The notes below the pieces were generated by a model. The model was not told the origin of the DNA. It worked only from the letters and a program-made list of their open reading frames with translations, and did not search any database. Positions 57,146 through 59,585 of a stretch of 60,070 bases of DNA are shown piece by piece (positions within the stretch are counted from its first letter, which is position 1; each line of letters opens with the position of its first letter). A program made the position numbers and the translations under genes. This stretch comes from Natronolimnohabitans sp. A-GB9 (GTDB taxonomy: Archaea; Halobacteriota; Halobacteria; Halobacteriales; Natrialbaceae): assembly GCF_030848565.1 (NCBI RefSeq), contig NZ_JAVDDV010000020.1, positions 1-60,070 of the forward strand. The letters run 5' to 3'.

Positions 57146-58435
57146 CTACTTCTCGTCGGTCTCGAGACGGCGTCGAACGCTTTCGGCGTGGGCCTCGAGC
57201 CCTTCGGCGTCGGCCAGCGTCGTAATCGTCTCGCCGATGTCGGCGAGTCCCTCGGCGGAGAGCCGCTGAACCGTCGTCGATCGCAAGAACGTCTCGACCG
57301 AGAGGCCACCGGTGACCTGCGCCCCGCCGTTGGTCGGCAACACGTGATTCGTTCCGCTCGCGTAGTCGCCCGCGGCAACGGGCGTGTTCGGCCCCAGGAA
57401 GACACTCCCCGCGCTATCGATTCTCTCGAGGATCGACTCCTCGTCGTCGGCGATAATCGAGAGGTGCTCGGGGGCGTACTCCTCGGTAAAGAGGATGGCT
57501 TCGCTCATCGATCGTGCCAGTAAGACGCCACTCGCATCGTTCTCGAGTGCCTCCTGAATTATCTCTTTACGCTCGCGCGCGCTGGCTTGCTCGTCGACGG
57601 CCGACGCGATCGCCTCGGCCGTCTCCTCGTCGTTCGTGACCGCGACGACGGGGGCGTTCGGATCGTGTTCGGCCTGTGCGACCAACTCGGCCGCGACGAG
57701 TTCGGGATCGGCGGTCTCGTCAGCGACAGCGACGATCTCGCTTGGCCCTGCCAGAAAGTCGATCTCGACGTCGCCCCGGACCTCGGCTTTGGCCGCCGTC
57801 ACCCACCTGTTTCCGGGACCGACGATCTTCTGGACCTGCATCATCGACTCGGTCCCGTAGGCGAGCCCTGCGATCGCCTGAGCGCCGCCAACACTGTAGA
57901 CCGCGTCGGCACCCGCGACGTGGATCGCGGCCAGCGTCACGGGATTCATTTCGTCGGCCGGCGGTGTGACGACCGCGACGTGATCGACGCCCGCCACCTT
58001 CGCCGGAACGACGCCCATGATCGCACTCGAGGGATAGGCCGCCGAGCCACCGGGGACGTAGGCACCGACGCGCTCGATCGGCCGGAAGCGTCGACCGAGT
58101 TCGCGACCGTCGGAGAACTCTCGGCGCCAGTCTTCGGGCATCTGTGCCTCGTGGAACTCCCGAACGTTGTCCGCGGCCGTCTCGATGGCCTCGCGAAGGT
58201 CGTCCTCGAGGTCTTCGTACGCGCGCTCGCACGCGTCAGTGATGTCGATGTTTCCCAGTTCGACGTCGTCGAACTCGCTTGTGAACTCGCGGACGGCAAC
58301 GTCACCCTCCTCACGGACGCGATCGACGATCTCCCGCACGTCGCTTCTGACCGCTTCGATACCGGCGTCGCGGTCGAAAAACGCCGCTCGATCGGCCGGT
58401 CCGAGATCGGCGAGTTCCCGCACGTCTACACTCAT
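57146..58435 (-). CDS. hisD: Histidinol dehydrogenase
   Basis: The 429-residue protein matches HisD, which oxidises histidinol to histidine in the last two steps of histidine synthesis. Motifs include RFRPIERVGAYVPGGSAAYPSSAIMGVVPAKVAGV, GTESMMQVQKIVGPGNRWVTAAK, DFLAGPSEIVAVAD, and the zinc/substrate region AEHDPNAPVVAVT then YAPEHLSIIADD. Length is normal for archaeal HisD. Other his genes are not in the window, so it is dispersed here, as in many haloarchaea. No gene follows closely in the same direction. Confidence 0.97.
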   Translation of the reverse strand: MSVDVRELADLGPADRAAFFDRDAGIEAVRSDVREIVDRVREEGDVAVREFTSEFDDVELGNIDITDACERAYEDLEDDLREAIETAADNVREFHEAQMPEDWRREFSDGRELGRRFRPIERVGAYVPGGSAAYPSSAIMGVVPAKVAGVDHVAVVTPPADEMNPVTLAAIHVAGADAVYSVGGAQAIAGLAYGTESMMQVQKIVGPGNRWVTAAKAEVRGDVEIDFLAGPSEIVAVADETADPELVAAELVAQAEHDPNAPVVAVTNDEETAEAIASAVDEQASARERKEIIQEALENDASGVLLARSMSEAILFTEEYAPEHLSIIADDEESILERIDSAGSVFLGPNTPVAAGDYASGTNHVLPTNGGAQVTGGLSVETFLRSTTVQRLSAEGLADIGETITTLADAEGLEAHAESVRRRLETDEK

Positions 58436-58958: not shown

Positions 58959-59585
58959 ATGTGGCCATGGGAGCACGCGATCATGGGATACGTCGTCTAC
59001 TCGCTGTTCTCTCGTCTCGTCTACCAGGATTCCCCGACCGGACTCGAGTCGGTCGCGGTCGTCTTCGCGTCCGTTCTTCCGGATCTCATTGACAAGCCCC
59101 TGGCATGGGAGTTTGGCGTCTTCGATGCCGGCTACGCGATCGGACATTCGATCTTCTTTGCCGTTTTGCTCTCGATCGCCGTCGGCCTCGTCGCTCGATC
59201 GGTAGGCCGACCACGAACGGGTCTCGCGTTCGCTCTCGGCTATATCCTCCACCTGCCGGCTGACGTACTCGACGCCTACGTTCGCGGCGGCGTCTTCCAG
59301 CCCGAACTGATGCTCTGACCGGTCGAAACTGTCTCCGATAGTGGACACGAACACGGGTTCGTCGACCAGTTCCTGCAACTATTCGCCCAGTATCAGACCG
59401 AACTGCTCGCCGGAGAGCTATCGACATACATCTGGATACAACTCGGTTTAACCACCTTTGCCTCCCTCCTGTGGCTCTACGACGGTGCGCCCGTCCTCCG
59501 TGAACTCCTGCGGGGCTCGTGTCGACTCGTTTTCTCGGCTCTCGGTTCCGATCGGTCACTCGAGGACGCTTCCGATCACCGATAG
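58959..59585 (+). pseudogene. Membrane metal-dependent hydrolase (YdjM/DUF457-like) interrupted by in-frame TGA
   Basis: The frame from MWPWEHAIMGYVVYSLF codes a membrane protein with PDLIDKPLAWEFG and HSIFFAVLL, which fits the YdjM/DUF457 membrane hydrolase family. After 119 codons (QPELML) a TGA occurs at 59316-59318. The same frame continues without break as PVETVSDSGHEHGFVDQFLQ... LTTFASLLWLYDGAPVLREL to a TAG at 59583-59585. The continuation keeps an acidic, membrane-associated haloarchaeal pattern. TGG (Trp) would make a single 208-residue protein. It therefore looks like a TGG-to-TGA nonsense change, or less likely readthrough. If real, the intact C-terminal half is recent or selected. 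Confidence 0.75.

Follow-up and report, generated by a model that had tools for sequence, protein, structure and literature searches.

A recent TGG-to-TGA nonsense change probably interrupted a YdjM-family gene flanked by hisD and an rRNA operon in the stretch of haloarchaeal DNA analysed here (the window, a complete contig of 60,070 bases; G000:C13, one of the 72 contigs of a 4.30 Mb genome). When 58959-59585 is translated, 119 codons are followed by the TGA, another 88 codons and a normal TAG, exactly as the original prediction had described from the letters. Read through the TGA, this frame comprises 208 codons and equals in length the closest same-locus orthologues, which carry TGG (Trp) at the position of the stop. 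The TGA is the sole defect seen in the gene. The features of the locus are listed in Table 1.

Table 1. Coordinates of the interrupted gene and of its neighbours in the window.
Feature	Position	Strand	Evidence
Neighbour, histidinol dehydrogenase-like gene hisD	57146..58435	-	Synteny by tblastn
Neighbour, small membrane-like protein, 70 aa	58552..58764	-	Conserved synteny
Upstream half, predicted YdjM-family membrane protein, 119 aa	58959..59315	+	PF04307 score, invariant columns, model
In-frame TGA at invariant Trp codon (W120; LWP motif)	59316..59318	+	Translation, codon comparison, alignment
Downstream half, same gene, 88 codons, frame intact	59319..59582	+	Codon alignments, invariant columns, model
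TAG, original stop of ydjM gene	59583..59585	+	Read-through length of 208 codons, as in closest orthologues
rRNA operon leader at contig end	59590..60070	+	Matches rRNA leaders of homologous loci

By sequence comparison, the interrupted gene is a member, at a conserved locus, of the common haloarchaeal YdjM family (PF04307, annotated in Pfam as YdjM inner membrane protein). Against a gathering cut-off of 29, the upstream half scores 46.5 bits, and the full read-through chain reaches 45.5 bits. By itself, the downstream half matched no Pfam family, and an NCBIfam scan returned no family for either half. A YdjM match is present in 125/125 genomes of the taxonomic family searched, the window's own included, and the scan of genome contigs yielded 61 related loci. 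The window copy resembles the rest of the family in profile score but differs in that TGA replaces the Trp codon of its LWP motif; in three further copies of the same genome (L005, L006 and L008) the frame stays open across this Trp. The product had been called a membrane hydrolase, a description to which family membership can now be added. 'Membrane hydrolase' is an annotation-level name only: metal-dependent hydrolase activity, often given in annotations, is putative, and the conserved His/Asp residues are consistent with it. Searches of structures added little: a PDB sequence search found no solved structure of a relative, no Foldseek match reached E 0.001, and the best VIA-align Z of 5.9 is uninformative for a helical bundle.

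Of 105 homologous places with E below 1e-15, some of which are one gene fetched from two collections, 103 have TGG as the codon aligned with the stop. The exceptions are the window, with TGA, and L143, a paralogue described below. This supports the proposal that a stop stands in place of an expected Trp, which a single G-to-A change from TGG would explain. W120 is likewise invariant in a 37-member alignment, in which the window's own W120 is a read-through assumption. A search with the 86 codons surrounding the site in 124 other genomes of the family matched 216 stretches, and 215 of these were open, the one internal stop being that of L143. Other internal-stop flags in the genome search, where inspected, marked the ordinary termini of shorter proteins, with the stop at query positions 184-204, which leaves L143 as the one genuine further case. 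Alignment with homologues, which had been suggested as a check, gives a single protein that spans the Trp of the LWP motif; no intact homologue ending at QPELML was found among the 105 places or the 216 stretches.

Both sequence conservation and a structural model indicate that the downstream half is a real part of the protein, as originally proposed. The read-through protein aligns along all of residues 1-208 with same-locus homologues, the highest identity being 75%, and the orthologues of 208 codons are intact. Across 37 homologues reaching down to 30% identity, the invariant residues fall in both parts of the protein: H6, D42, D45, H63, H98 and D102 before the stop; W120, P121, W172, D175, G176 and P178 from the stop codon onward. 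The upstream half contains the conserved E5/H6, D42, D45, H63, H98 and D102 together with four long predicted helices, and the downstream half contains the W..DG.P motif (W172, D175, G176, P178) and three predicted helices. In the AlphaFold2 model of the read-through protein, built on the 37-homologue alignment (mean pLDDT 91.9, pTM 0.85), the stop lies in a loop that follows helix 4 and a short turn of helix, with helices 134-150, 156-174 and 178-206 beyond it.

A single recent TGG-to-TGA change would be enough to break the ydjM gene. Ribosomes would stop at the TGA and release at most a 119-residue fragment that lacks both the Trp-Pro and the W..DG.P motifs as well as the three final helices. 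Because these elements are missing, the fragment is probably non-functional. We infer that the base is real and not an assembly error, that the cell makes no full-length product, and that it can bear the loss thanks to the other family copies. The gene resembles known single-nonsense pseudogenes in having one in-frame stop, an otherwise intact frame and length, and intact orthologues at the same locus. It differs in bearing no further lesion as yet, which implies that it is very young or an assembly error.

Substitution patterns would place a real nonsense event late. No relaxation of the downstream half is visible in codon alignments: the ratio of downstream to upstream dN averages 1.96 in pairs that include the window, as compared to 2.43 (sd 0.61) among 14 relatives' pairs. 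Nucleotide difference from the nearest orthologue is about 21% in the upstream half and 31% in the downstream half. Under simulated neutral evolution, the downstream half remains free of new stops with probability 0.62 at 0.05 substitutions per site and 0.41 at 0.1. Given this result and the lack of a dN excess, the stop therefore arose late on an otherwise long branch, or is an error. At highly conserved columns the window deviates at 0/10 positions downstream and 4/~43 upstream, and 7 of 75 sequences deviate as often or more; the four upstream deviations are a weak hint at most of relaxation across the whole gene. An unrelaxed downstream half is compatible with a recent event, a base error or a functional full-length product, any of which would explain it. 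The suggestion of a very recent nonsense mutation fits these data, as does a base error.

The principal competing explanation is a sequencing or assembly error at this base, with TGG as the true codon and an intact gene. The contig breaks at an rRNA operon ~750 bases beyond the TGA, and the lack of decay in the downstream half is as expected for an intact gene. However, the contig end is no exact repeat, the only other sizeable match in the genome to its last 481 bases being 73% identical, and no second defect is seen in the ydjM gene. Base errors are also few in short-read assemblies. On balance, an error appears unlikely. A functional short form, in which the 119-residue upstream half works alone, would retain the acidic and His residues that are conserved; in addition, the paralogues L143 and L004 of other genomes are broken at or just past the same point. 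It would nevertheless lose all six invariant residues from W120 onward; the matched stretches in the other genomes, with a single exception, remain open through the region; and the loss of a conserved His in L143 points to decay. We regard a working short form as very unlikely. A two-piece protein, with halves translated separately and then assembled, is the least probable of the alternatives. The stop does fall in the modelled loop that joins helix 4 to the final three helices, but the downstream half has no in-frame ATG, GTG or TTG after the TGA (the nearest GTG, at 59341, is out of frame), and no homologue was found that is split and has a start downstream. The earlier suggestion of two pieces is not sustained.

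Programmed or leaky readthrough of the TGA, which would yield a full-length protein, was also among the original proposals and is not supported. The downstream frame is intact and unrelaxed, and the base after the TGA is C; a stop followed by C is a leaky context in other organisms. Against this, TGA is a standard stop here. It ends 24 of the 40 likely genes in the window, more than any other stop, and is therefore not reassigned to Trp. Relatives have TGG at the W120 site and show no such stop, hence no conserved recoding site. A genome search for tRNA-Sec gave nothing above the cut-off, and none of the tRNAs read has a UCA anticodon, of the kind a suppressor-type tRNA would carry (44 tRNA matches, of which two intron-bearing ones, L106 and L152, are not assigned with certainty). 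No tRNA-Trp is among the tRNAs read either; it may be one of the two intron-bearing matches, or may have been missed owing to its intron. RNA beside the stop folds no better than shuffled sequences (z -0.5 and -0.1) and is not unusually stable. In archaea, stop-codon readthrough has been demonstrated only for selenocysteine and pyrrolysine, according to a review of archaeal recoding (PMC8211752). The window gene is similar to these systems in having an in-frame stop within a coding sequence (TGA in the case of selenocysteine), but differs in the missing tRNA-Sec match, in relatives that have Trp and not Cys or Sec, and in the lack of a supporting RNA structure. Readthrough in general thus seems highly improbable. 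More doubtful still is the specific case in which the whole species carries the TGA and an ordinary tRNA reads it often enough to supply functional full-length YdjM; if true, this would represent readthrough of a stop in a haloarchaeon outside selenocysteine and pyrrolysine.

A nonsense change that interrupts the gene remains the probable reading, and a YdjM copy broken by a stop, whether a nonsense allele or a base error, is ordinary biology. Its significance is mainly for annotation, where the two halves are to be recorded as one interrupted gene. The significance would be larger only if peptides proved readthrough.

The surroundings of the gene are conserved. The closest relatives retain a block of hisD (minus strand), the 70-aa protein (minus), ydjM (plus) and an rRNA leader. 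The hisD neighbour, which we take to be this gene from its recognised sequence and not from a family-library scan, is syntenic by tblastn in L010, L011, L018, L032, L033, L042, L055 and others. The last 481 bases of the window match rRNA leaders of homologous loci, which run on into 16S rRNA; among the scanned loci, L010, L039 and L054 reach it. A second leader-like stretch, the 73% match noted above, lies at G000:C34:307928-308296. The sister genome G001, the sole other of the genus and given as 99% complete, gave no match to the window HisD (429 aa) or to the 70-aa neighbour, perhaps reflecting an assembly gap. Because neither is found there, G001 is unusable as a same-locus control.

Two paralogues elsewhere are also broken. 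L143 (G122:C1:296800-297755, minus strand) belongs to another genome of the family and is a 43% paralogue. An alignment by eye against L140 (RVILWPV vs RVVP*PV) puts a TAG at its equivalent Trp codon, and the frame is open on either side of it. Its conserved His is gone as well (GHSIF to GYSIF), and L143 looks like an independent decayed copy. From these two lesions, the stop in L143 and a frameshift in L004, single copies of the YdjM family appear to be lost by nonsense or frameshift now and then. L004 is a paralogue in the sister genome (G001:C18:42637-46014, about 1500-2100); its frameshift lies ~15 codons past the LWP motif, and the remainder continues in another frame.
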